This document shows, piece by piece, positions 3,228 to 14,622 of a DNA stretch of 34,058 bases. Below the pieces are notes generated by a model, which searched no databases, was not told where the DNA came from, and saw nothing but the letters and a program-made list of their open reading frames with translations. Position 1 is the stretch's first letter, and every line of letters starts with the position of its first letter. Location: contig JARLHP010000160.1 of assembly GCA_031292195.1 (NCBI GenBank), positions 1 through 34,058 on the forward strand. The letters run 5' to 3'. Position numbers and translations under genes: made by a program. This stretch comes from Syntrophobacteraceae bacterium. GTDB lineage: Bacteria > Desulfobacterota > Syntrophobacteria > Syntrophobacterales > Syntrophobacteraceae.

Positions 3228-3632
3228 ATGAGTCGAAAACTCAAAAGGCTGGCGCTTGCCGTCTGCGTGCTATCAGTCGCGCTACCCGTTCAAGCTTATG
3301 GGTTCCAGGTAAGAGTCAGCGCCTACGCTGCCGATCGTCGCTGTACGAAGCGGTTCCATCCTAATGTCACAGCCTCGAAGCACCGTATCACCAGCCAGGA
3401 TTGCTACCGAATGGTGGCGTTTTCACCGGATCTTGCCAGACAATTCCGATTCGGTGACCGCTTCCGCCTGCAGATCAAGCACAAGGTCTATACTGTAAGG
3501 TATCAGGACAGGATGCCCTGGGCCAGGCGGGGGAGGGTCGATTTTCTTTTGCCCTCGGTCGGGAGCTGTAGAAGGTTTGGCATTAAAAGGGCGATTCTCA
3601 CCCCCATCAAGAGTGAAGAGCCCGAAACCTGA
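3228..3632 (+). CDS. Secreted 3D-domain (RlpA/MltA-like barrel) protein
   Basis: This 134-residue protein starts with a Sec signal peptide (basic MSRKLKR, hydrophobic core to about residue 20, AYG region). It continues as a small double-psi beta-barrel of the '3D' family, named after three aspartates also found in MltA and RlpA-type cell-wall hydrolases. Candidate acids are D77 (FRFGD), D94 (YQDRMP) and D105 (RVDF), and the 'VDF...GSCRRFGIK' ending fits the barrel. It is probably periplasmic and may act on or bind peptidoglycan; whether it is an enzyme cannot be told. The ATG at 3228 has AGGAG at 3214-3218. An upstream ATG (3164) in another frame has an even stronger ribosome site. Extra cysteines (C39, C59, C114) suggest disulfides. 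Confidence 0.75.
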   Translation: MSRKLKRLALAVCVLSVALPVQAYGFQVRVSAYAADRRCTKRFHPNVTASKHRITSQDCYRMVAFSPDLARQFRFGDRFRLQIKHKVYTVRYQDRMPWARRGRVDFLLPSVGSCRRFGIKRAILTPIKSEEPET

Positions 3633-3679
3633 GCATCCTTACCGCGCGCCGCAAAAAGGAATACCCAGACCCGCGCCTT

Positions 3680-4294
3680 TCATCGGGCGCAGCTGTTACG
3701 CTGCAAGTGCGCCAGGTCCTCTTCGGTATCGATGTCGAAGAAAGAGTCCTCGCTGTCGATTTCCACCCGGAGGAGGCTCTCGGGATTTTCACGGATGATG
3801 TCTCGTCCGCCCACGTCTCCCCGGGTTTTCATTATTCGGGGATAGAACCTGGCGCCGAAAATTACCGGAGAGCCTTGGCGCCCGTTGCAACAGGGCAGGC
3901 AAATATCTTTGTGGGAGTTCCGGAAACTTGCGAGCAGCAGGTCGATGAGGCGATGGTCCAAAAAGGGGTGGTCGGCCAGAATGACCATTATGGACGCAAA
4001 ACTTGTCACCCGCAGCAAGCCTTCGCGCAGGGAAGCGGACATTCCCTCCCCGTAGCGGCTGTTCAGGGCAACCGAAAGGCGCGAATCGCACACCAGCGGG
4101 CCAAGGGAAGCGAGCATGGCCCCCGACTCATGTCCGAGCACCAGGACCAGGTGCTCCAGGCGCGAGGAAAGAGCGGTTTGGACCGTTTTGGCCAGCAGCG
4201 TGCGGCCGCCCACATCCAGCAGTTGCTTGGGCCTGCCGAGGCGGCTGGATCTTCCCGCGGCAAGAATTATTCCGGCGGTGGGGCTTTTCTCCAT
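3680..4294 (-). CDS. mocA: MocA-type molybdopterin nucleotidyltransferase
   Basis: A 204-residue nucleotidyltransferase with the GT-A-like fold of the MobA/MocA family. It transfers CMP or AMP from an NTP to molybdopterin to make the dinucleotide cofactor used by xanthine-dehydrogenase-family hydroxylases. The nucleotide-binding signature LAAGRSSRLGRPKQLL spans residues 11-26. VILADHPFLD follows as the metal-binding region and GDVGGRDII as the late family motif. I chose ATG 4294 because the domain begins just after it and it lies two bases beyond the yqeC stop; a GTG at 4330 would add 12 residues overlapping yqeC. It is the last gene of the hydroxylase operon. Cytidylyl versus adenylyl specificity is inferred from the context (MCD for this enzyme family). 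Confidence 0.88.
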   Translation of the reverse strand: MEKSPTAGIILAAGRSSRLGRPKQLLDVGGRTLLAKTVQTALSSRLEHLVLVLGHESGAMLASLGPLVCDSRLSVALNSRYGEGMSASLREGLLRVTSFASIMVILADHPFLDHRLIDLLLASFRNSHKDICLPCCNGRQGSPVIFGARFYPRIMKTRGDVGGRDIIRENPESLLRVEIDSEDSFFDIDTEEDLAHLQRNSCAR

Positions 4295-4296
4295 TC

Positions 4297-5094
4297 TCAG
4301 TCCCGTACAGTGTGGTGTTCCAAAGCGCACCGCGTCACTATTTGTGGCTCAGGCCTCAGCGAACCGACAACCACCCGGTCAATTTCACCCCTTCCCCGCA
4401 TCAGAAGAGATGTGGCGATAGCTTGCCCGGCGCTCCGACGGACCGGGTCGTCGGCCTGGTTCAAAAAGACGACTCGCCGCGAAGGGTGTGGAGAACCCCT
4501 GAAGATACCCTCGGGGGCCAGGAGTGCGCAAACCACGGACTCGGCGCTAACCGGGCTTCCCAGCGCAACACCGGTCAGCCGCGAGTAGAGCGAAGCCCTG
4601 AAGACATTCTCATCCCCCAGGGGTTTGCCTACGGCTTCCAGCCCCACCACCGCCACAATAAGGCCGCTGCTCCGCGCTATGACCGGTTCGTGTTCGGCCG
4701 GAGCTTTGAGCGGAAGGCGCTTCGATCCGTCCGCTTCCACCAGTATCCAGTGGAAAAGACCGGCTTGCCGCAACGCGTCGATCAGTTCCGGAGGATAGCC
4801 CGCAAGTTTATTGGACCCGTCCAAAACGCTTGCCGCGGCCGTAACGTGGGTTCCCCCCCGGGTGCGCCCTTCCAGCTTTTGGCGCAAGGCGGGAAGGTCG
4901 CGGGCCAAAAAGAGGGTCGGGGACTGCTCGGGAGTGGGCACAAAAATCCTGGTGGTCGTGGTGGTCAGGACCGAGCGGCCTTGGGCGGCCAGTTCCCGGG
5001 CAAGCTGAAACATGAGGGTGGTCTTTCCCCCGGCCCCGACCAGGCTGACCACGCCCCCGTCCCGCAGATGCAATGCGTCGCTAAGCAGCCCCAT
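4297..5094 (-). CDS. yqeC: YqeC family selenium-dependent hydroxylase accessory protein
   Basis: A 265-residue cytosolic protein with a P-loop near the N terminus (SLVGAGGKTTLMFQLAREL; GAGGKTT at residues 20-26) and a TTTTTRIF segment typical of the YqeC family. The family is known from gene-context studies as one of two accessory proteins of selenium-dependent molybdenum hydroxylases, found with yqeB and mocA. The exact chemistry is not settled; it is thought to help insert or activate the labile selenium of the molybdenum cofactor. Start: ATG 5094 is preferred over TTG 5115. It overlaps the yqeB stop by 14 bases, indicating translational coupling, and mocA begins two bases after its end. 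Family identification is strong; the role is from established context. Confidence 0.87.
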   Translation of the reverse strand: MGLLSDALHLRDGGVVSLVGAGGKTTLMFQLARELAAQGRSVLTTTTTRIFVPTPEQSPTLFLARDLPALRQKLEGRTRGGTHVTAAASVLDGSNKLAGYPPELIDALRQAGLFHWILVEADGSKRLPLKAPAEHEPVIARSSGLIVAVVGLEAVGKPLGDENVFRASLYSRLTGVALGSPVSAESVVCALLAPEGIFRGSPHPSRRVVFLNQADDPVRRSAGQAIATSLLMRGRGEIDRVVVGSLRPEPQIVTRCALEHHTVRD

Positions 5095-5962
5095 CGGCCC
5101 GCCCGCCTGCCGCAAGCCTGGCGCCTACCGGCCACCGCACCGGTCCTCTCAGAGAGTCGCAATGGGCGAGAATGGCCTCCAGGACCGCCCCGCCCAGCGC
5201 CCTGGCCTTGTCGGAAACGGTATGGCAGTAATCGCCCTCGCCTCTTGGGTCGATGTCTCCTATCTTCAAACCCGAAGTCACCGGAAAATTGGGCCGGATG
5301 AGCCCGCGCAAAACACCGTCAAGGGCAGCTACAATATCCCTGCCGCCCACCTCTCCGATTACTTCCCCTTTGGATACCGAATCCCCGATTTTTTTCCGGG
5401 CGAGAAACACCCCGTCCGCAGGCGAACGCAGGACCCGCTCCCGGGTGTATCCGCCGATATTGCCCGGCACCCCCGTATTGGCTTCCGCCTTTCCCCGGTA
5501 GATGAGGCGTCCCAAATTGTGCCCGCGGTTGGTCTCCACGACCACGTGAGAGTCCATGCCGGCGGTAAAGCCCGGACCAAGGGCCACCACCAGGGGCGCT
5601 TCCCAGACATTGGTGCCCAGGTTTTTCTTGGCCAGGATGGCGTCCACCACCACATCGGGCTTCAACTCCCGGATGCTCTCCCATTTGGGGTCCACCCGAA
5701 CGGCTATCCTGCCCGATCTCCAGGCCTGGAGCATTTGGGCTCTGCCGCCCACCCGGACCGCTACGATTCCTTCCACGCTCATCGTGCCCTCATGGACCGC
5801 CTCGCTGAAGCAGACAAATCTTCTGATGGCCAAAGGAGAAGGGGTCTCAAGCATTACGATCCGCTTAAAACCGGCGCGAAAAAGCCTCGCGGCCACGCCG
5901 GAGGCCAGGTCCCCGGCCCCCTTGAAAAGAATCGTCAGTTCCTTTAAAGGCTTCTTGTTCAT
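5081..5962 (-). CDS. yqeB: YqeB (EF2563) family selenium-type Mo-hydroxylase maturation protein
   Basis: A 293-residue protein opening with a Rossmann-like glycine loop (ILFKGAGDLASGVAARLFRAG, residues 11-31). It continues with the family-typical VDAILAKKN, VALGPGFTAG and ETNRGHNLGR segments. The middle part (ERVLRSPADGVF...KIGDSVSKGEVIGEVGG) resembles a biotinyl/lipoyl-like hammerhead. This matches the EF2563/YqeB family of selenium-dependent molybdenum hydroxylase accessory proteins. Phylogenetic profiling couples the family to SelD-requiring labile-selenium cofactors. ATG 5962 has GGGAG five bases upstream, and the gene starts 28 bases after the hcrB stop. Presence of yqeB plus yqeC is the best local evidence that the neighbouring hydroxylase carries selenium; no selD gene is in the window. 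Confidence 0.87.
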   Translation of the reverse strand: MNKKPLKELTILFKGAGDLASGVAARLFRAGFKRIVMLETPSPLAIRRFVCFSEAVHEGTMSVEGIVAVRVGGRAQMLQAWRSGRIAVRVDPKWESIRELKPDVVVDAILAKKNLGTNVWEAPLVVALGPGFTAGMDSHVVVETNRGHNLGRLIYRGKAEANTGVPGNIGGYTRERVLRSPADGVFLARKKIGDSVSKGEVIGEVGGRDIVAALDGVLRGLIRPNFPVTSGLKIGDIDPRGEGDYCHTVSDKARALGGAVLEAILAHCDSLRGPVRWPVGARLAAGGRADGAA

Positions 5963-5990
5963 GTCGTCTCCCGACGCTTTCGATGCTTTG

Positions 5991-6989
5991 TCAAAGCGGC
6001 CCGGCTTCCAGCAGTTCTTTAAGGAGCCTTCGGCACATCACCCGCGCCATGAGGCGGCGATGACCGGGGCTGCCGGCCTGGTTTCCGACCGGTTTGGTCC
6101 TTTTGGTGACCAGTTCGGCGGCGCTCGCCAGGAGCTCAGGGGCGGGAAGGGCGCCTTCCAGCACCTCCATCGTCTCCAGGGCCAAAACCGGCGAAGAGGC
6201 CATGGCCCCTACGGCCACCCGCGCCTCCCGGATTCTTCCCTCCCTCACTTGGAAGGCCACGGCCACGGACACCAGCGGGTAATCGATGGAGGCCCGCTGC
6301 CGGTACTTGCGATACCCGGACAGAAGGTTTTCGGCCGGGGGCAGATGAAGATCGGCCACCAGTTCGCCGGGGAGCAGGACGTTTCGTTTGATCCCGTCCT
6401 CGACGAAAAATTCCTCTAGAGGCAGCGTGCGCTCGCTCTTAACCCCATTGGGCCCGCCCACCAGTCTCACGCGAGCCCCCAGGGCGATGAGGGCCGGAAC
6501 CGTATCGGAGGAAAAGTTGGCAAAACAGCGTTTGGCCGCCGGCGCCGCGCGGCAGATGGGGCCGTCTTTTTTAAGGCACCCCCCCAGGCTGCGTCTCCAA
6601 AAATCGCTCTGGTTGTAGTAGTAGCACCGGGTGTCCAGGCAGACGTTTCCCCCGAGGGTCCCCCGGTTTTGCAGCGGCGGGCTGGCCACGGCTTCGGCTG
6701 CCTGGCTGAGGGCCCGGTAGCGCGTTCGAATCAGCGGGTGGTCTTTTATCCGGGAAAGGCGCACGCAGGCCCCTATGGTTGCGCCCTCCTCTCCAACCCC
6801 AAGGTGGTGCAACTCCGGCGCACCCTTTAGGTCCACCAGGTGGGTGGGACTAAACAGGCCGTGTTTCATGGATACCAGCAAATCGGTGCCTCCGGCCACC
6901 GGCATGGCGCCGGGATTCTCCGCCAGAGCGCTCAGCGCCTCGGAGAGTGAGGAGGGCCTCACCAGTTGGAAATCAGGCAAAACCATCAT
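5991..6989 (-). CDS. hcrB: HcrB-like FAD subunit of a molybdenum hydroxylase, with 4Fe-4S loop
   Basis: A 332-residue flavoprotein subunit of the CO-dehydrogenase/xanthine-dehydrogenase medium-chain family. FAD-contact motifs are VAGGTDLLVSMKHG (31-44) and TLGGNVCLDTRC (111-122). Unlike ordinary medium subunits it carries an insertion of about 40 residues with cysteines at 117, 122, 138, 146 and 155. In Thauera 4-hydroxybenzoyl-CoA reductase the beta subunit has such a loop holding an extra [4Fe-4S] cluster. As I recall, four of its cysteines fall at these same positions (122, 138, 146, 155). This supports an HCR-type reductase that takes low-potential electrons inward rather than an oxidising xanthine dehydrogenase. 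Tandem ATGs at 6989/6986 follow AAGGA. A repeat-bearing gap of 187 bases separates it from hcrA, while yqeB follows closely. Confidence 0.88.
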   Translation of the reverse strand: MMVLPDFQLVRPSSLSEALSALAENPGAMPVAGGTDLLVSMKHGLFSPTHLVDLKGAPELHHLGVGEEGATIGACVRLSRIKDHPLIRTRYRALSQAAEAVASPPLQNRGTLGGNVCLDTRCYYYNQSDFWRRSLGGCLKKDGPICRAAPAAKRCFANFSSDTVPALIALGARVRLVGGPNGVKSERTLPLEEFFVEDGIKRNVLLPGELVADLHLPPAENLLSGYRKYRQRASIDYPLVSVAVAFQVREGRIREARVAVGAMASSPVLALETMEVLEGALPAPELLASAAELVTKRTKPVGNQAGSPGHRRLMARVMCRRLLKELLEAGPL

Positions 6990-7122
6990 GAATTATTCCT
7001 TGGCGGTAGGACCGCCGGTCGGGGCGGCGTGCCGCCGCAGCCGGGATTGCCAAGCCCAAACCACGGACTTTTCGTGGTTTTCGGGTATCCCGGGATGACA
7101 TGAGAAACTGCTGTGAATATTC

Positions 7123-7167
7123 TTGTTGGGCTGCGCTTCGCTTAGCCCAACCTACAGCCCAACGCTG
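7123..7167. repeat. Short copy of the hairpin repeat inside the hydroxylase operon
   Basis: GTTGGGCT and AGCCCAAC form an 8-bp stem around an inner GCG/CGC pair, followed by CCTACAGCCCAA. It matches the core of the 205-378 and 10279-10464 repeats. It sits between the stop of hcrA and the start of hcrB, in a 187-base gap in an otherwise tightly packed operon, which suggests insertion. It may act as an mRNA processing or stabilising hairpin between the two cistrons. Confidence 0.75.
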
Positions 7168-7176
7168 TCAGGGACG

Positions 7177-9492
7177 CTAGGTCCTGCTCCCTGCTCCCTG
7201 CTCCCTGCTCCCTGCTTTTTTTGCAGCCAGGGCCTTCAGCACCGCCTCCGGGCTGATCGGGGCTTCGTGAAGCCATATTCCCACCGCGTCGTAGATCGCG
7301 TTTACGATGGCCGGAATGGAAGGGTGCAGGCTTCCTTCCCCGCATTCCTTGGCCCCGAAGGGGCCTTCCGGATCCAGGCTTTCCACCAGAATCGGCTCGA
7401 TATCAGGGACGTCGAGGGCGGTGGGGACCTTGTATTCCAGAAGGCTCGGGCTTTCATGCTGGCCGGTTTTCACAAATTCGTTTCTTTCGTACAGTGTCTC
7501 CCCCAGCCCCATGACCGCGGCCCCTTCGACCTGCCCTTCCGCAGCGGGAGGATTTAGAGCCCGCCCCAGGTCGTGAGCGGCCACCAGGCGAAGCACCCTG
7601 ACCTCGCCGGTCTCCGTGTCCACCTCGACTTCGGCAACGTGCGCCCCAAATGAGTAGGCGGGGCTCGGCCCCACGCCCGCCCCCCGGTATTTGCCGGCAA
7701 GAATTGGCGGCGTATAGCCTCCCGACCCGCACACCGGGCCCCCCCTTACTTCGGCCAGCATCACGGCTTCGGCGAAACTGAGTATCTTCGGCGGGCTGGT
7801 CGGAACCTCCACCGCCTGGCCGCGAATTTCCAGATCCTCGACAGATACCCCGTGCTCCTCGGCCACAGCGGCAAGCAGTCGGTTGCGAACTTCCAGCGCG
7901 GCCGCATGGCAGGCGTTTCCGGCCATGAACGTCACCCGGCTGGAGTAGGAGCCAAGATCGACCGGGGTGGTGTCGGTATCCGCAGACACCACTTTGACCG
8001 ATTCGGGGGACACTCCGATAGTTTCCGCAGCCACCAGGGCCAGCATGGTGTCGGAGCCCTGGCCGATATCGGAAGCCCCGCAAAATACGGTGACCCTCCC
8101 GCTTCGATCCGCTTCGATCCGGGCGTTCGAGTGGTGCAGGGGGTTGAAATAGATGGGCAGGCCCGCGCCGCAGATGTAGAAGCCCCCGGCGATACCCAGG
8201 CCGCGACCTTTGGGCAGCTTGCCCCTTCGCTCCTCCCAGGAGACCTTCCGCGCGGAGCGCTCCAGACACTCCCGGAACCCGCAGGAAGTGATCCTCAATT
8301 CGTTTACGGTGCGCGTGCCGGACTCCATCGCGTTTTTTAGCCGAATCTCCAGGGGGTCGATTCCCAGGTCGGTGGCGATCCGGTCCAGGTGGACCTCGAA
8401 GCCGTACCGGGGTTGAACCCCTCCGTGGCCGCGCTGCGCACCGCACGGGGGTTTGTTGGTGTGAACCCGGACAGCATCGAAGCTGTAGGCAGGGATCACA
8501 TAGGGACCGGTTAGAAGCTGCCCGGAATAATAGAGGGTCACAACGCCATAGGAGCCATAGCTCCCGCCGTCCAGAAGGCTTTCAAAATGAAGGGCGGTGA
8601 TCCGGCCGTCCTTTTTGACTCCGGTCTTAAACTTCATGTGCATCGGATGGCGTCCCCGGTGGGTGAGAAACACCTCTTCCCGGGTATAAGTGATTTTTAC
8701 CGGCCGGCCCGACTTTCGGGCCAGGATGCTGGCGGCGAACTCCAGAGGCAGCGGCTCTCCCTTGCCTCCAAAACCTCCTCCCAGGGCCGGCTTGATTACC
8801 CGCACCCGGTCCTGCGGCAGTTCCAGCACCTTGGAGAGGTACCGGTGAAGGTAGTGAGGGACCTGGGTGGCGGTCCAGAGGGTGAGTTTGCCGTCCTGGA
8901 AATGGGCAAGGGACGAGTGGGGCTCGATCGGGGCATGGGTGGCGGCGCCCTTGAAAAAGCTATCCTCCCTGATGTAATCCGCCTCGCCAAAGCCGGCCTC
9001 CACATCGCCAAACGACAGGCTGGCCTTCCGCTCGATATTGGCCACCCGGGTCTCTTCGTGGATCTTTACGTCCTCGCGGACCATCGCCTCATACGGGTCG
9101 AAGATGGCCGGGAGAACCTCGTAATCCACCACGATGAGGGAAAGCGCCCGCAGCGCGGTCGCCTCGTCCACGGCGGCCACCGCTGCCACCTCGTCTCCCA
9201 CAAAGCGCACCTTGCCTACCGCCAGGGCGTATTCATCTTCGGAGACCGGCAAAATTCCGTAGGCAACCGGAGCGTCCTGCCCCGTGGCCACCGCTTTTAC
9301 GCCCGGAAGGGCCTCGGCTTTCGAGGTGTCGATGCTCCGTATGCGGGCATGGGCGTGGGGAGAGCGCAAGATTTTTCCCACCAGCATTCCCGGAAGACGA
9401 AGATCGTCGGTGTACTGCGCCTGGCCGGTCACCCTGGCCACACCGTCGTAGCGCACCGTGGGTTTTCCTATCCACTGAAATTCCCGGCTCAT
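7177..9492 (-). CDS. hcrA: HcrA-like molybdopterin-binding catalytic subunit
   Basis: The 771-residue large subunit of a xanthine-dehydrogenase-family molybdenum hydroxylase, close to the length of known HcrA. The N-terminal hammerhead domain begins with GKPTVRYDGVARVTGQAQYTDD. The Mo-cofactor domains show ALGGGFGGKGEP (about 260), CGAQRGHGGVQPR (about 354, a form typical of 4-hydroxybenzoyl-CoA reductase alpha subunits), DIGQGSDT and GAKECGEGS near the C terminus, whose Glu is the expected active-site base. No in-frame TGA occurs, so any selenium would be a cofactor atom, not selenocysteine. Start ATG 9492 overlaps the hcrC stop in ATGA with GGTGAG upstream. The last dozen residues (AGSREQGAGSRT) are encoded by a four-copy heptamer repeat and look like a recent extension. 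The exact substrate cannot be read from sequence. Confidence 0.9.
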   Translation of the reverse strand: MSREFQWIGKPTVRYDGVARVTGQAQYTDDLRLPGMLVGKILRSPHAHARIRSIDTSKAEALPGVKAVATGQDAPVAYGILPVSEDEYALAVGKVRFVGDEVAAVAAVDEATALRALSLIVVDYEVLPAIFDPYEAMVREDVKIHEETRVANIERKASLSFGDVEAGFGEADYIREDSFFKGAATHAPIEPHSSLAHFQDGKLTLWTATQVPHYLHRYLSKVLELPQDRVRVIKPALGGGFGGKGEPLPLEFAASILARKSGRPVKITYTREEVFLTHRGRHPMHMKFKTGVKKDGRITALHFESLLDGGSYGSYGVVTLYYSGQLLTGPYVIPAYSFDAVRVHTNKPPCGAQRGHGGVQPRYGFEVHLDRIATDLGIDPLEIRLKNAMESGTRTVNELRITSCGFRECLERSARKVSWEERRGKLPKGRGLGIAGGFYICGAGLPIYFNPLHHSNARIEADRSGRVTVFCGASDIGQGSDTMLALVAAETIGVSPESVKVVSADTDTTPVDLGSYSSRVTFMAGNACHAAALEVRNRLLAAVAEEHGVSVEDLEIRGQAVEVPTSPPKILSFAEAVMLAEVRGGPVCGSGGYTPPILAGKYRGAGVGPSPAYSFGAHVAEVEVDTETGEVRVLRLVAAHDLGRALNPPAAEGQVEGAAVMGLGETLYERNEFVKTGQHESPSLLEYKVPTALDVPDIEPILVESLDPEGPFGAKECGEGSLHPSIPAIVNAIYDAVGIWLHEAPISPEAVLKALAAKKAGSREQGAGSRT
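7184..7211. repeat. Four perfect CTGCTCC heptamers at the 3' end of hcrA
   Basis: Four uninterrupted copies of CTGCTCC run from 7184 to 7211, with a fifth imperfect copy after them. Read on the minus strand as GGAGCAG, they encode the C-terminal tail of hcrA up to a TAG at 7177. As seven is not a multiple of three, gain or loss of a unit would change the frame and the end of the protein. Confidence 0.9.
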
Positions 9493-9977
9493 GACTCACC
9501 ATCCCGCCCTTGGGCCCCGCTCGCCTCGGCCGCCCGGCGCACCGCGCACACGATTTTGGTATAACCCGTACAGCGGCAGAGGTTACCCGAAATTGCACGA
9601 CGGATTTCGACATCGGTGGGGTCCGGGTTGGCGTCCAGAAGGGCCGTGGCGGTCAGGACCATCCCCGGCGTGCAATAACCGCACTGGACCGCACCTTCAT
9701 CCAGAAAAGCCTTTTGCACCGGATGGAGTTCCTCCCCATGCGACAACCCTTCGATGGTCACAACCGAGTGGCCTTCCGCGTCGGCCGCCAGCACCAGGCA
9801 GGAAAGGACAGGCTCGCCGTCCAAAAGAACCGTGCATGCCCCGCAATCCCCAAGATCACAACCCTGCTTCGTGCCGGTCAAGCCAAACCTCTCCCGCAAC
9901 GCCTGCAGAAGCGTCTCGCCGGCGCGAACGCCAACCTCCACAGGATCTCCGTTCAAGCTGAATCGCACAACATTCAT
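9489..9977 (-). CDS. hcrC: HcrC-like [2Fe-2S] subunit of a molybdenum hydroxylase
   Basis: A 162-residue small subunit with the two expected iron-sulfur domains. The N-terminal plant-ferredoxin-like domain has GCDLGDCGACTVLLDG with a later LSC ligand, and the C-terminal four-helix domain has CGYCTPGM and CRCTGY. It passes electrons between the FAD/4Fe-4S subunit and the molybdenum site. ATG 9977 is chosen: GGAG lies seven bases upstream, and the homologous part (MNVVRFSLNG) starts there; the longer frame from 10004 adds nine unrelated residues. It is the first gene of the operon and overlaps hcrA by four bases (ATGA). Its leader of about 100 bases starts at the double palindrome around 10041-10076. 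HCR family members have this gene at a comparable length. Confidence 0.92.
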   Translation of the reverse strand: MNVVRFSLNGDPVEVGVRAGETLLQALRERFGLTGTKQGCDLGDCGACTVLLDGEPVLSCLVLAADAEGHSVVTIEGLSHGEELHPVQKAFLDEGAVQCGYCTPGMVLTATALLDANPDPTDVEIRRAISGNLCRCTGYTKIVCAVRRAAEASGAQGRDGES

Positions 9978-10040
9978 TGCTCCACACTCCCTCATTCCAA
10001 CCATTCCATAGCCACAGAGCGGGCCGATTGCGCCGCGATC

Positions 10041-10076
10041 TGTTCGTTATATAGAACATGTCCTCTATAGTGAACA
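10041..10076 (-). promoter_or_regulatory. Two abutting 18-bp palindromic operators of the hcr-yqe operon
   Basis: Read on the minus strand, TGTTCACTATAGAGGACA (10076-10059) is followed without a gap by TGTTCTATATAACGAACA (10058-10041). Each is a TGTTC-N8-GRACA inverted repeat of 18 bp; the second is exact in its 5-bp arms and the first has one mismatch. They begin one base after the predicted -10 box, so bound protein would cover the transcription start. IclR-family regulators of aromatic degradation often use GTTC...GAAC-type palindromes, so an IclR repressor is a reasonable guess. No such gene is in the window. Confidence 0.65.
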
Positions 10077-10077
10077 A

Positions 10078-10106
10078 AAATTAACTGTGGCTCCCGCAAA
10101 AGTCAA
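10078..10106 (-). promoter_or_regulatory. Sigma70-type promoter of the hcr-yqe-mocA operon
   Basis: On the minus strand TTGACT (10106-10101) is followed after exactly 17 bases by TAATTT (10083-10078). The spacing is ideal, and the -10 box abuts the paired palindromes. The first gene, hcrC, starts about 100 bases downstream. No other good promoter was seen between 9978 and 10250. Confidence 0.6.
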
Positions 10107-10586
10107 GCGAAATTTTGGGGCAAGGTTGGCGTTTCGGCGGCGGCCTTGCGGCGTGTCGCCGCCGACCGCTTGCCAAGCCCCGATCTGCCCGACTGACCGC
10201 GCCGGCGGCGCTGATCGGCCCTAAGTCGGCGCTTGAACGCCATAATGGGGATGATACCAGGTTGCGTTCAAGATTTTATTGATGGGTTGCGCTTCCGCTC
10301 CACCCATCCTTGTATCTTAAAAGAGCAAGAGCATGGGATTAACCGGGGTGGCGAAAGTATTTGTTGGGCTGCACTACGCTTAGCCCAACCTACAGCCCAA
10401 TCCTACGCCAGCCCTTCGAGAACCGCTGTAGGATGGGTGAAACGCAGTGAAACCCATCTGTTTTCATTGTCAAGAAAGCGACGGAGAGGACCGAGTTATG
10501 GTTGGAATGTTGATGCCGGAATGGCGCCCTGCATTTTGCAAGTCACACTCACGGCCGGGGAATCCTGGCGAAAGGGGAAAGCAAAG
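10107..10586. other. Intergenic region with repeats, no gene
   Basis: It lies between the hydroxylase promoter and a small four-Cys protein gene. 10130-10215 is GC-rich with a GGCGGCG...CGCCGCC hairpin; part of it, CGGCGTG...GCC followed by TTGCCAAGCCC, resembles 7025-7060. That suggests the repeats at both places share extra flanking sequence. 10279-10464 is the long repeat copy 2. No ORF here has recognisable features. Confidence 0.5.
10279..10464 (+). repeat. Interspersed hairpin repeat, copy 2
   Basis: A near-identical direct copy of 205-378. It includes the long shared core from CTCCACCCATCCTTGTATC onward and the GTTGGGCT hairpin. It differs by one extra C in the first loop, a few substitutions, and a 10-base insertion in the last hairpin that duplicates a GAAAC-type unit. 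The two copies are about 10 kb apart in the same orientation. Confidence 0.85.
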
Positions 10587-10788
10587 ATGGCTGACTGTCA
10601 ACTGCTCGATAAGTGCGGGTTTTTCAAAAAATATTCAGGATCGCACCAGGCGGCCTACCGGGGGCTCATCGCTTCCTACTGCCAAGGGACAAAACAAGAG
10701 CAGTGTAAACGGAAAGCGTACAGAAAAGAAAAAGGTCCCCCCCCCGCCGGACGACATGCTGCCCATAGGACACACCTTCAAGGGCTGA
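10587..10788 (+). CDS. Small four-cysteine protein, frameshifted in a 9-C tract
   Basis: From ATG 10587 (AAAGGGGAAAG upstream) the frame reads MADCQLLDKCGFFKKYSGSH and on through QGTKQEQCKRKAYRKEKG. Cysteines lie at 4, 10, 32 and 40, the pattern of a small deltaproteobacterial family with C-x5-C and a second Cys pair, perhaps binding metal or Fe-S. At codon 51 it enters nine consecutive C (10737-10745). Read straight, it becomes an Arg/His-rich tail that runs into the opposite ClC gene. With one C fewer it reads PPPPDDMLPIGHTFKG and stops at 10788, giving a compact 66-residue protein with the acidic P-DDM-P ending I associate with this family. So this is a sequencing indel, a real disruption, or a phase-variable tract. 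Family recall is from memory. Confidence 0.6.
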
Positions 10789-10803
10789 CCCGGACATATT
10801 GTA

Positions 10804-12678
10804 TCACAGCGGGGCCTTTTGCTCGGCGCTGCCTTCCTCCGCGCCGGTTTCACCCCGGATGGATTTTTGCAGCTCCTGCTGATAGCGGGTGAGCAGGTCT
10901 TCCAGGCCAAGTATACCGATCAGTCCCTTTCTTTGATCCACAATGGGGATGCGCGTAAAGCCGGTTTCCAGAAACTTTACAAGCGCGGCGGACAGGCTTT
11001 CGTCGGGTGCAACGCTTATGGGCGGCAAGAGCAGATCCCGGGGGCTCAACATCTCCCACACCGATTTTTTTGAAAGGGCCGCCCGTATCTCGAGTAGAGA
11101 CAATATTCCGGTGAGCCGTGAATCGTTATCCACCACCGGGAAAACGGACTCGTTGGTGCTGGTGGCCACCCGCCTTAGCTGCGTAAACGTCATGTCTTCC
11201 GGGAGAACGGTTGCCGGAGAATCCGGCCGATAGACATCTTTTACCGCCAGGCCTTTGAGCATATAGACCAGCCTGTCGGACTGATGGGCGGGGGAATGGA
11301 ATTTGTTTTCGACCTGGTTTTGGAAGATACTCCAGCGTTGCGTAAGCAGGATGGCCAAAACCGAGGACAGCATGATGGGCACCAGGAGATCGTAGCTGCC
11401 GGTCATTTCGGAGACCATGAAGAGGGCGCCCAGCGGGGCCTTTGCCACGCAGGCCAGAAAGGTGGCCATCCCGACAAGGGCGAAGGCACCCGGAGAGCCT
11501 ACAATGGAGGGACACCAGGTGTGGGCCAGTCGGCCGACGGCCCCGCCCAGTACGGCCCCGATAAAAAGAGCGGGGGCAAAAATACCCCCGCTTCCCCCGG
11601 AAGAGAGGGTAAAAGAGGTTGTGGCGATTTTGAGAAAGGCCAGTGTAAACAGAAACGCCACCGGCAGCTCGCCCAGCAGGGCCCTTTGCATGGTCCCATA
11701 GCCGCCCCCCAGGATCTCCTTGTGCCAGAGGGCGACCAGGCCCACCAGGAGGCCTCCCACTGCGGGCAGCCACTCACGCCTTATCGGCAGCTTTTCGAAT
11801 AAGCCGGTTTTAAGGCCGGAGAGCATTTTGGTAAAAAGGAATCCAAACGGAACGCAGACCAGTCCGATAGAGGCGTAGAAGAGCAATTCCAGCGGATCGG
11901 GAAATTCGATGCGGGGGAAGGCGAATATGGGCTGACGGCCGAAGATGGCCGTAAAGATTTCATAGGAAACCAGCGAAGAGATGACGCTCAAAATGAGGCC
12001 TTCGGTTTCGAGGTCTTCGCGGTAAAGAATTTCAGCGGCCATGAAGGCGCCGCCCAAAGGCGCCCGAAAAATGGCGCTCAAGCCTCCGGCGCACCCGGCC
12101 AGGAGCATGAGCCTTCTTTCCCGGACGTCGAGCTTCATAAGGCGCCCCAGCATGGATCCCAGTCCCGCTCCAATCTGGGCGATGGGACCTTCCCTGCCCG
12201 CGGAGCCGCCGGTCGCCAGTATGGCGATCGAAGCCATACCCTTTACCAGCGGCACACGCGGCCTTATGAAGCCCTGGCGGTGAAAGGCCTCGATGTAGGC
12301 GTCGGTTCCCTCTCCCTCCGCCTCGGGGGCCGAAAAAGTGACGATCAGACCGGAAAGAAGCCCTCCGAAGGCGGGAAGCAGGACGAGAAGCCAATAGAGG
12401 ACATGTTTACCGGGAATCGAAGAGGCGAGGTGTTCGCCGGCGGGCAGCGGGAAGTCATAGCCCGCAAGGTAATCCAGGAAGAAAAATGCCCCCCACTCCA
12501 GGACATAGAAAAAGAGGGCCGCGGCAAGCCCGCTCAATACGCCTATGGCCGAGCCGTAAACAAACCAGCGTAAAAACCTCGATTTACGTAATACAGTGAA
12601 CTGGGAAAGAACGTGCTTCCACGGCGCAATGAGATCGAGTTCAATGTCTTCAATGCTGATCTGCTTATTTGTTTCCAC
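10804..12678 (-). CDS. ClC-type chloride transporter with C-terminal CBS pair (copy 1)
   Basis: A roughly 624-residue inner-membrane ClC family protein that moves Cl- or other anions, as a channel or H+-coupled exchanger. Residues 45-430 hold the membrane domain, with GSAGREGPIAQIG (the gating-Glu motif GREGP) and SGGSGGIFAPALFIGA (the GxFxP motif). The usual GSGIP selectivity motif is replaced by an acidic PEAEGEGTDAYIEAF segment. A CBS pair follows (VKDVYRPDSPATVLPEDM; PRDLLLPPISVAPDE), which in other ClCs binds nucleotides. GTG 12678 is preferred to ATG 12699: GGAAGG precedes it, and it gives the same GTGGAAAC opening as the paralog's start. It follows copy 2 by about 80 bases and so is probably cotranscribed. 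Confidence 0.9.
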   Translation of the reverse strand: METNKQISIEDIELDLIAPWKHVLSQFTVLRKSRFLRWFVYGSAIGVLSGLAAALFFYVLEWGAFFFLDYLAGYDFPLPAGEHLASSIPGKHVLYWLLVLLPAFGGLLSGLIVTFSAPEAEGEGTDAYIEAFHRQGFIRPRVPLVKGMASIAILATGGSAGREGPIAQIGAGLGSMLGRLMKLDVRERRLMLLAGCAGGLSAIFRAPLGGAFMAAEILYREDLETEGLILSVISSLVSYEIFTAIFGRQPIFAFPRIEFPDPLELLFYASIGLVCVPFGFLFTKMLSGLKTGLFEKLPIRREWLPAVGGLLVGLVALWHKEILGGGYGTMQRALLGELPVAFLFTLAFLKIATTSFTLSSGGSGGIFAPALFIGAVLGGAVGRLAHTWCPSIVGSPGAFALVGMATFLACVAKAPLGALFMVSEMTGSYDLLVPIMLSSVLAILLTQRWSIFQNQVENKFHSPAHQSDRLVYMLKGLAVKDVYRPDSPATVLPEDMTFTQLRRVATSTNESVFPVVDNDSRLTGILSLLEIRAALSKKSVWEMLSPRDLLLPPISVAPDESLSAALVKFLETGFTRIPIVDQRKGLIGILGLEDLLTRYQQELQKSIRGETGAEEGSAEQKAPL

Positions 12679-12759
12679 TTGTCCGCCGCCTTCCAGCATG
12701 ACTGTTCCGCTGCCGCCCCGCGCCGTTTGGGAGTCATTTTGACAGGTATACCGGAAACC

Positions 12760-14622
12760 TCAATTTGCACCTGGCCCCCCACCCGGGTCCCTGCCCTTGG
12801 AGACCGACGCCCCAAGCTCTTCCTGCTGACGGGAAATCAACTCTTCGAGGCTCAGCATGCCGATTACCACATTTTTTTGGTCCGTAACAGGGATTCGTGT
12901 AAGACCGGTTTCAAAGAACCTGACAAGCACGTCGGAGATACTCTCGTCGAGGCCCGCACTAACGGGCGGCAGGAGCAAATCCAGCGGACCGGCCGTCGCA
13001 AAGTTCGAATTTGTTGACAAGGCGGTCCTTATCTCCAGCAGTGAGAGTATTCCCAGAAGATGCGAATTCTTGTCCACCACCGCGAAGAGGGACTCGCCGG
13101 TGTCGGCGGCGAGCTTTTCCAGGAGTCCAAAAGTGATACTTCCGGAAACGACCGCGGTTGCTTTCGGGCTATAGGCGTCCCTGACCGTCAAGCCTTTCAT
13201 CTTATGGATCAGCAGATCGGATTTATGGGCGGGAGAATGCATTTTATTCAACACCTGCGATTCGTAAATACCCCACCGCTTTGAAAGCCAGACAGTCAAA
13301 ACGGAAGTGAGCATGATGGGCGCAAGGAGCCCATAGCCGCCGGTTATTTCGCTTATCATCACGGCGGCCCCTATGGGGGCTTTGGCAAGGCCGCAGAAAA
13401 ACGCGGCCATTCCCACCAGGGCAAAGGCGCCGGGAGAACTCACTATTTTCGGGAACAGCAGGTGAGCCAATTGCCCGACTGATCCGCCAAGCATGGCGCC
13501 GACGAAAAGAGCGGGCGCGAAAATGCCCCCGCTTCCCCCGGAAGACATGGAAAAAGAATTGGCGAAGATCTTCAGAATAGCCAGGGTAAACATGAGGGCG
13601 ATGGGGAGTTGCCCCATCAGGGATTTTTGAATCGTACCGTAGGCCGGCCCCAGGACTTCCGGCCGCCACAGGGCTAAAAGTCCAACCATAAGCCCCCCCA
13701 GGGCGGGGACCAGTGCGCGGGGCCTGATCGCCAGCTTTCGGAAAAACCGGTCTCTCAGGCCATAGAAAACCGTGACATAAATGTAGACGAAAGGGACGCA
13801 AAGCAGTCCGAGCAGACCATAGAACGGCAACTGCAGCGGATTGAAGGCTTCAATGGGCGGAATTGCAAAGATGGCTTTGGCGCCAAAAAAGGTTGTAAAG
13901 ACCAGGTAAGAGACCGCAGAGGAAAAAAAGCAGAGCGCAATTCCCTTCGTTTCGAGATCCTCCCGGTAGAGGATTTCGACCGCAGTCAAAGCGCCGCCCA
14001 AAGGCGCCCGAAAGATGGCGCTCAACCCCGCGCCGCATCCGACCAGGAGCATGAGTCGCCTGTCGCGCGGGCTCAGTCCCGCGACGTTCGCCAGCCAGGA
14101 GGCTATGCCGGACGAAATTTGGGCGATGGGGCCTTCCCGCCCGGCGCACCCCCCGGTACCGATGGTGAGCAGCGAGGCAACTCCCTTGATGTAAGGGGTA
14201 CGAGTCCTGATGGCGCCCTGCTTGTTATGGAAGGCGTCAATGAAGGCTTCCATTCCATTGCCTTCCGCCTCGGGCGCCCAGCGGTATACGATAAGGCCCG
14301 AAAGAAAACCTCCGATGGCGGGCAGAAGGACCAGCAGCCAGGGGCGAAGAGGGGTTCCGGCAGTCAAAGGAACGATATGCTCCCCGCCGGGCTGCCCCGG
14401 CGAATAACCGGCGAGGTAGGTCTGAGTGAAAAAAGAGGTCCACTGCAGCAGGTAGAACATGACGCCGGCCACAATCCCGCTAACTATCCCGATGACCAAT
14501 CCAAACACAGGCCAGCGGAAAAGACTGGATTTGCCAAATGCTCTGCGGAGCACGACGGTCCGCGCCCTGAGAGTTATCCGCTCAACCCTTTTTTTGCCCT
14601 CGCGCCGGTTTCCCGTTTCCAC
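12760..14622 (-). CDS. ClC-type chloride transporter with C-terminal CBS pair (copy 2)
   Basis: A 620-residue paralog of the downstream gene, with the same order of parts. The ClC membrane domain has GCAGREGPIAQIS and SGGSGGIFAPALFVGA, an acidic PEAEGNGMEAFIDAF in place of GSGIP, and a HSPAHKSDLL linker. It ends in two CBS domains (VRDAYSPKATAVV; GPLDLLLPPVSAG) that close near residue 605. The gating Glu of GREGP is present. The start is GTG at 14622 with AAGGAG 12 bases upstream, slightly long. The two copies share about half of their residues, so the duplication is old. Both sit behind an orphan response-regulator gene on the same strand, though 200 bases separate them. Channel versus antiporter mode and ion choice cannot be decided. 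Confidence 0.92.
   Translation of the reverse strand: METGNRREGKKRVERITLRARTVVLRRAFGKSSLFRWPVFGLVIGIVSGIVAGVMFYLLQWTSFFTQTYLAGYSPGQPGGEHIVPLTAGTPLRPWLLVLLPAIGGFLSGLIVYRWAPEAEGNGMEAFIDAFHNKQGAIRTRTPYIKGVASLLTIGTGGCAGREGPIAQISSGIASWLANVAGLSPRDRRLMLLVGCGAGLSAIFRAPLGGALTAVEILYREDLETKGIALCFFSSAVSYLVFTTFFGAKAIFAIPPIEAFNPLQLPFYGLLGLLCVPFVYIYVTVFYGLRDRFFRKLAIRPRALVPALGGLMVGLLALWRPEVLGPAYGTIQKSLMGQLPIALMFTLAILKIFANSFSMSSGGSGGIFAPALFVGAMLGGSVGQLAHLLFPKIVSSPGAFALVGMAAFFCGLAKAPIGAAVMISEITGGYGLLAPIMLTSVLTVWLSKRWGIYESQVLNKMHSPAHKSDLLIHKMKGLTVRDAYSPKATAVVSGSITFGLLEKLAADTGESLFAVVDKNSHLLGILSLLEIRTALSTNSNFATAGPLDLLLPPVSAGLDESISDVLVRFFETGLTRIPVTDQKNVVIGMLSLEELISRQQEELGASVSKGRDPGGGPGAN

Follow-up and report, generated by a model that had tools for sequence, protein, structure and literature searches.

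Can a molybdenum reductase of the 4-hydroxybenzoyl-coenzyme A reductase (HBCR) type carry labile selenium on its metal? The question is raised by a locus of a Syntrophobacteraceae bacterium (assembly GCA_031292195.1, contig JARLHP010000160.1), in a stretch of 34,058 nucleotides that was analyzed whole and is called the window here. Six intact genes, hcrC-hcrA-hcrB-yqeB-yqeC-mocA, run on the minus strand of the window from 9977 to 3680. A preliminary description, made from the DNA letters, had presented them as one operon joining an HBCR-type hydroxylase to selenium-type maturation genes, and its six genes, their order and their coordinates were all confirmed. We give a probability of about 0.5 to the reading that the operon encodes both a heterotrimeric molybdenum reductase of HBCR-like type and the proteins that mature it, the enzyme acting on an aromatic acyl-CoA with labile selenium on molybdenum.

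The identity of the enzyme was addressed by searches against NCBIfam models and PDB chains; "over cut-off" means above the NCBIfam equivalog cut-off. HcrA scored 929.2 bits with the HBCR alpha model TIGR03194 (cut-off 994.55) and 585.2 bits with the XdhA model, HcrB scored 305.2 bits with TIGR03195 (cut-off 404.55) and HcrC 179.2 bits with TIGR03193 (cut-off 257.8), the top model for HcrC being XdhC_XDHase (192.3 bits vs a cut-off of 217). Because the three subunits lie under their equivalog cut-offs, we use the term HBCR-like for the enzyme and stop short of classing it as an HBCR. The top PDB match of HcrA was 1rm6_A, the alpha subunit of Thauera HBCR (687 bits, the second match having 321), and that of HcrB was 1rm6_B (203 bits, the second having 124). 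Residues Cys122, Cys138, Cys146 and Cys155 of HcrB align with cysteines of 1rm6_B that we take to be the ligands of its [4Fe-4S] cluster, and none of the four varies when the window protein is aligned with 12 relatives (13 sequences). HcrB has, with them, the four-cysteine [4Fe-4S] insertion of HBCR beta subunits, which was absent from the xanthine dehydrogenase (XDH)-type betas in the alignment. The insertion is not universal, since the betas of all eight over-cut-off HBCR loci found in the same phylum (L120, L181, L182 and L309-L313) do without it. The Thauera aromatica HcrCAB enzyme (1rm6) is similar in its three subunits, in the insertion of its beta subunit and, presumably, in its gene order C-A-B; the window locus differs from it by scoring under the equivalog cut-offs and by having yqeB-yqeC-mocA in the same operon.

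HcrA trees were built with FastTree from 139 sequences, limited to HcrA matches that covered over about 520 residues of the query, and with IQ-TREE from a chosen subset of 55 of the 139. Both gave the same placement of the window HcrA. In the IQ-TREE phylogeny it is sister to the rest of a [4Fe-4S] clade (ultrafast bootstrap, UFBoot, 98); this clade is joined at UFBoot 92 by one with the over-cut-off HBCRs L229 (1263.4 bits) and L307 (1337.2 bits), then at UFBoot 99 by L322/L326, and finally at UFBoot 97 by a clade with the over-cut-off HBCRs L120 and L181, so that the resulting clade holds the window protein and both HBCR sets. By these sequence trees the window HcrA is placed between two over-cut-off HBCR groups. 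The FastTree node linking the window clade to the L229/L307 clade has a Shimodaira-Hasegawa (SH) support of only 0.731 and the exact sister is therefore less certain than the overall placement. Amino acid identities of HcrA were 56.7% with L201, 47.3% with L307, 47.0% with L181 and 34.6% with XdhA of Escherichia coli, which falls in a different clade. The phylogeny proposed as a check in the preliminary description thus put HcrA among the HBCRs and outside the xanthine dehydrogenases. Together with the HcrB insertion and the best PDB matches it backs the HBCR-type assignment made there, and the HBCR-like identity of HcrCAB is well supported at the level of sequence. A xanthine dehydrogenase assignment was rejected on the HcrA trees and the HcrB insertion.

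Concerning the maturation proteins, YqeB scored 372.8 bits with TIGR03309 (cut-off 220) and YqeC 188 bits with TIGR03172 (cut-off 73.05); MocA reached 157.7 bits with TIGR03310, below the cut-off of 186.45. The P-loop of YqeC is conserved, with G20, G22, G23, K24 and T25 invariant in 27 sequences. Its sequence profile matched only P-loop GTPases in the PDB (best E 6.2e-5), and its structural model (mean predicted local distance difference test, pLDDT, 94.1) gave weak fold matches to the signal recognition particle receptor, MeaB and HypB GTPases (E of about 3e-4 to 1e-2, template modeling score of about 0.4, root mean square deviation, rmsd, of 7-10). MeaB and HypB are metallochaperone-type GTPases. 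For YqeB the sequence profile found no clear relative in the PDB (best E 0.08). In its confident model (pLDDT 90.1) we read a Rossmann-like part and, after it, a domain resembling biotin carriers; the closest shapes came from biotin-carrier-like domains, in pieces of 65-71 residues (rmsd 1.3-1.8). A mechanism for YqeB taken from its fold was rejected, as the matches with the best E-values superpose badly (rmsd of about 13-20). Selenium chemistry is shown by neither of these model-based results.

The significance of these genes comes from earlier surveys. Haft and Self (2008) put forward YqeB, YqeC and YgfJ/MocA to mark new selenium-dependent molybdenum hydroxylases and reported YqeB from selD-positive genomes only (PMC2276186). 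The combination of SelD, YqeB and YqeC was likewise used as a marker by Zhang (2008; PMC2432076) and in a 2022 review (PMC9312934). In a deletion study no clear phenotype resulted from loss of yqeC (PMC11448449). The window locus resembles the selenium-dependent purine and nicotinate hydroxylases in its yqeB, yqeC and mocA family markers and in the selD of its genome. It differs in that those enzymes are oxidative (PMC2276186) and HcrCAB sits with a reductive dehydroxylase clade. A selenium ligand is present in the nicotinate dehydrogenase structure 3hrd.

The host assembly (5.5 Mb, 94.9% complete) contains YqeB, YqeC and selD, as well as genes of the benzoyl-CoA pathway, so that both genome searches suggested in the preliminary description were positive. 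Of the outcomes named there as refuting, the two open to computation, a genome without selD and an HcrA inside the xanthine dehydrogenases, both failed to appear. There is one over-cut-off copy of selD, with an in-frame TGA. Two Oah proteins are over cut-off (555.9 and 539 bits vs 464.45), and Had (470.6 bits vs 338.65) adjoins one of them. The genome encodes seven molybdenum hydroxylase large subunits, and the window locus is the only one of the seven that yqeB and yqeC adjoin, one of the others being on a 6.3-kb contig. There are two over-cut-off copies of yqeB. The second (L019; genome G000, C267:11469-12236) lies in an 18-kb stretch from which yqeC, mocA and molybdenum hydroxylases are all absent. 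A phylogeny of 122 YqeBs groups the window copy with L019 (SH 0.968) and then with the YqeB of the over-cut-off HBCR locus L120 (SH 0.997). The sample includes 16 closer relatives (5 of the same family, 10 of the same order and 1 of the same class), of which none had YqeB at E 1e-30 and all had selD. This absence from near kin would fit a horizontal acquisition of the maturation genes. A second enzyme of HBCR-like type, its beta also of the [4Fe-4S] kind, is encoded in this genome (L018:11695-15152, C109), in a stretch without yqeB, where a neighboring open reading frame (ORF) resembles an AMP-dependent CoA ligase by eye.

Co-occurrence of the two gene sets was analyzed in a phylum sample of 395 genomes, of which 113 had YqeB and 107 an HcrB-like protein. 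YqeB was present in 67 of the 88 genomes with an HcrB match of at least 150 bits vs 46 of the 307 others; by families, it was present in 31 of the 39 with HcrB and in 7 of the 68 without. With an HBCR-like alpha (E up to 1e-230) the figures were 40 of 45 genomes vs 73 of 350. Over-cut-off HBCR alphas, for which at most two candidates per genome among the matches listed were scored and whose counts are lower bounds, occurred in at least eight genomes, all eight of which had YqeB. In three of the eight (G385, G123 and G151) YqeB lay within 4 kb of the HBCR alpha, and the stretch also encoded YqeC and MocA. Loci L120, L181 and L182 are similar to the window locus in having yqeB, yqeC and mocA on the same stretch and strand as an alpha subunit, there over the HBCR cut-off, and unlike it in their insertion-free betas. 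The order hcrA, yqeB, yqeC, mocA of L120 matches that of the window, although L120 has an xdhC gene between hcrA and yqeB (8276-9037) and none was seen in the window operon; in L181 and L182 the alpha and yqeB are about 3.3 kb apart. On this evidence the earlier statement that YqeB and YqeC belong mainly with purine- and nicotinate-type hydroxylases was too narrow. Four loci with insertion-bearing betas (L080, L082, L083 and L084) also have HcrB, HcrC, HcrA, YqeB, YqeC and MocA on one strand, the nearest alpha 4-243 bases from YqeB; the alphas of L080 and L082-L084 form a clade separate from the window HcrA (L083 and L085 also in IQ-TREE). The idea that the link between HBCR and yqeB is unique to the window was refuted by L120, L181, L182 and L080-L088.

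The over-cut-off HBCR L307, which comes from the same order as a Sterolibacterium genome, lies in a 19.5-kb stretch without yqeB, yqeC or mocA. In Geobacter metallireducens HBCR is encoded by Gmet_2134-2136 (PMC1924859), and a 2009 article listed pcmV and pcmW (Gmet_2138 and 2139) among proteins possibly concerned with the molybdenum cofactor of HBCR, with pcmX (Gmet_2140) given as a MobA relative; the word "selenium" has a count of 0 in that text (PMC2700814). We offer pcmV/W/X for comparison, as possible counterparts of YqeB/YqeC/MocA. Selenium in an HBCR was not reported in the literature searched by title or abstract opening, a coverage that mostly excludes subscription journals, and such a claim was absent from the passages of PMC10420851 that were examined.

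The layout of the six genes is given in Table 1. The hcrC and hcrA genes overlap by 4 bp, hcrB and yqeB are separated by 28 bp, yqeB and yqeC overlap by 14 bp (ATG at 5094) or 35 bp (TTG at 5115), and yqeC and mocA are 2 bp apart counted from the ATG at 4294. The overlaps or very short gaps described earlier hold for these junctions and fail for hcrA-hcrB, which, with 187 bp and a palindrome inside, is not tight. This palindromic repeat, GGTTGGGCT...AGCCCAAC, has further window copies at 288-315 and 10363-10390; when up to 3 mismatches are allowed it matches at 110 places in the whole genome, 46 of them forward and 64 reverse, and the reversed-pattern control gave 0. A promoter and terminator scan of 3400-10900 did not rise above shuffled sequence (3 vs a mean of 1.8, and 10 vs 9.0). 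Order and spacing suggest that the six genes would be co-transcribed.

Table 1. Features of the hcr-yqe-moc locus (window coordinates)
Feature	Position	Strand	Description
hcrC	9489..9977	-	2Fe-2S (gamma) subunit; Fer2 and Fer2_2 domains; ATG at 9977, ORF start possible at 10004
hcrA	7177..9492	-	Molybdenum (alpha) subunit, HBCR-like; by TIGR03194, PDB match and tree
hcrA-hcrB gap	6990..7176		187 bp with repeated palindrome, exact copy at 7125-7152
hcrB	5991..6989	-	Flavin adenine dinucleotide (FAD; beta) subunit; [4Fe-4S] insertion Cys122/138/146/155
yqeB	5081..5962	-	Selenium-dependent molybdenum cofactor maturation protein; TIGR03309
yqeC	4297..5094	-	Selenium cofactor biosynthesis protein, P-loop NTPase-like; TIGR03172; TTG start at 5115 possible
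mocA	3680..4294	-	Molybdenum cofactor cytidylyltransferase-like; NTP_transf_3; ORF start possible at 4330

Upstream of hcrC there are two similar long ORFs in tandem (10804-14622), the first of which Pfam identifies as a CLC chloride channel that has CBS domains. Near the contig end (28924-34051) a FadL/TodX-type outer membrane protein, an AMP-binding CoA ligase and a fused enoyl-CoA hydratase/3-hydroxyacyl-CoA dehydrogenase are encoded consecutively.

We propose that MocA would add cytidine monophosphate to molybdopterin to give the molybdopterin cytosine dinucleotide cofactor, and that YqeB and YqeC, with selenophosphate from SelD, would load molybdenum with labile selenium at the position that sulfur takes in ordinary members of the family. 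The finished cofactor would be inserted into HcrA. Electrons could then flow from HcrB, entering by its FAD and [4Fe-4S] cluster, to the two 2Fe-2S clusters of HcrC, and the ring hydroxyl of 4-hydroxybenzoyl-CoA or a close aromatic acyl-CoA would be reductively removed, feeding the benzoyl-CoA pathway. The genes with their order and motifs, the tree position, selD, Oah and Had are seen directly, whereas we infer the selenium, the substrate, the direction of the reaction and the step of each maturation protein; judged by sequence, labile selenium is probably present on the HcrA molybdenum.

Several observations weigh against this proposal. Each subunit falls under its own HBCR cut-off, and the operon contains no CoA ligase. 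The co-occurrence tests were made without a control for molybdenum hydroxylases in general and handle phylogeny by the family count only. Five of the eight over-cut-off HBCR loci had no yqeB in the fetched stretch, some of which end at contig ends, and the YqeBs of the HBCR-adjacent loci L181 and L182 fall outside the group of the window YqeB. There were 126 YqeB places in the phylum, 2 of them in the genome of the window; 120 of the other 124 were fetched, the short hits G012, G144, G239 and G274 being excluded. Of these 120 stretches, which often end at contig ends, 77 had no molybdenum hydroxylase subunit (no match to a window Hcr protein at E 1e-8), 26 had only an insertion-free beta, 8 an alpha alone and 9 an insertion-bearing beta (L080-L088). 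With no hydroxylase detected in 77 of 120, YqeB would often act on enzymes encoded elsewhere, and the link is loose. The clade of the enzyme itself is also unfavorable. From at least 578 confirmed stretches with HcrB relatives, 80 were kept (L200-L279; at least 20 kb long in 32 and at least 10 kb in 64), with records titled Acidobacteriota, Rokubacteria, Gemmatimonadota, Thermogemmatispora and others, and 60 of their 64 HcrA rows fell in the window clade or the neighboring HBCR clade. Neither yqeB nor yqeC was found near any of the 80 (up to 10 kb on each side), and YqeB was missing at E 1e-30 from 36 of the 40 of their genomes that were chosen by hand and searched. The window is therefore an exception in its own clade, which normally works without these genes. 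Finally, since selD occurs in 346 of the 395 phylum genomes and has an in-frame TGA here, selenocysteine use alone could explain it; selD was rejected as proof of selenium in HcrCAB, its role in those genomes being probably to serve selenocysteine.

These observations bear on an alternative that we regard as somewhat unlikely, in which the HBCR-like reductase has the usual sulfur ligand, and YqeB and YqeC travel with mocA as general maturation genes or serve another of the seven molybdenum hydroxylases in trans. The near-constant absence of yqeBC from the HcrA/HcrB clade, the second yqeB with no hydroxylase in its 18-kb stretch, the presence of seven large subunits and the 77 enzyme-free phylum stretches all favor it. 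Yet yqeB and yqeC adjoin only the window locus among the seven (with the reservation of the 6.3-kb contig), they overlap each other, the gene order from hcrA to mocA recurs in an over-cut-off HBCR locus, and YqeB is reported from selD-positive genomes only (PMC2276186).

The substrate could also be different. A free phenolic might be dehydroxylated, as by the urolithin C dehydroxylase Ucdh of Enterocloster bolteae, or the enzyme may act on another aromatic acyl-CoA or in oxidative hydroxylation, selenium being present or not; we consider this set of possibilities unlikely. Ucdh is described as the second reductive dehydroxylase of the xanthine oxidase family after HBCR, which is its closest characterized relative (PMC12771579). 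It shares family and reductive chemistry with the enzyme proposed here, differs from it in having a non-CoA substrate and shows that a reductive member of the family can take a non-CoA phenol; the count of "selenium" in that article was 0. The scores under the HBCR cut-offs agree with another substrate, and so does the spread of the window clade over many lineages (soil, groundwater, hot and marine, by record title), in which strict anaerobiosis is not obvious; the three window-clade alphas scored (L201, L225 and L250) reached 798-908 bits, below the HBCR cut-off. On the other side, HBCR-like chemistry is favored by the [4Fe-4S] insertion and by the placement of HcrA between two groups of HBCRs, Oah and Had are in the genome, and the gene right after hcrB in L201 encodes a PaaK-like, AMP-binding CoA ligase (270.7 bits, model cut-off 700), with a similar ORF seen by eye after hcrB in L220. 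That the enzyme is a selenium-containing but otherwise ordinary purine hydroxylase (xanthine dehydrogenase) seems to us very improbable, even though yqeB and yqeC are published markers of that group (PMC2276186), HcrC alone scores best with a xanthine dehydrogenase model and phylum yqeBs are more often near insertion-free, XDH-type betas (26 stretches) than insertion-bearing ones (9). Against it stand the lower identity of HcrA to E. coli XdhA than to the over-cut-off HBCR L307, the HcrB insertion that aligned XDH-type betas lack and the lead of 1rm6_B among PDB matches.

Returning to the selenium-containing HBCR-like reductase, co-occurring genes alone cannot show selenium, and for this reason the window and L120 matter as targets: enzyme and maturation genes stand together there and could be expressed whole. 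If the proposal is true, the labile-selenium cofactor would extend from oxidative hydroxylation of purines and nicotinate to a reductive dehydroxylation central in anaerobic aromatic breakdown. More tentatively, and with somewhat less confidence than we place in the window enzyme, the HBCR-type reductases of strict anaerobes, from which the window stands apart as a separate [4Fe-4S] case, might be selenium enzymes in which selenium tunes the site for reductive hydroxyl removal. If this held for them, anaerobic 4-hydroxybenzoate breakdown would require selenium, apart from its use in selenocysteine.

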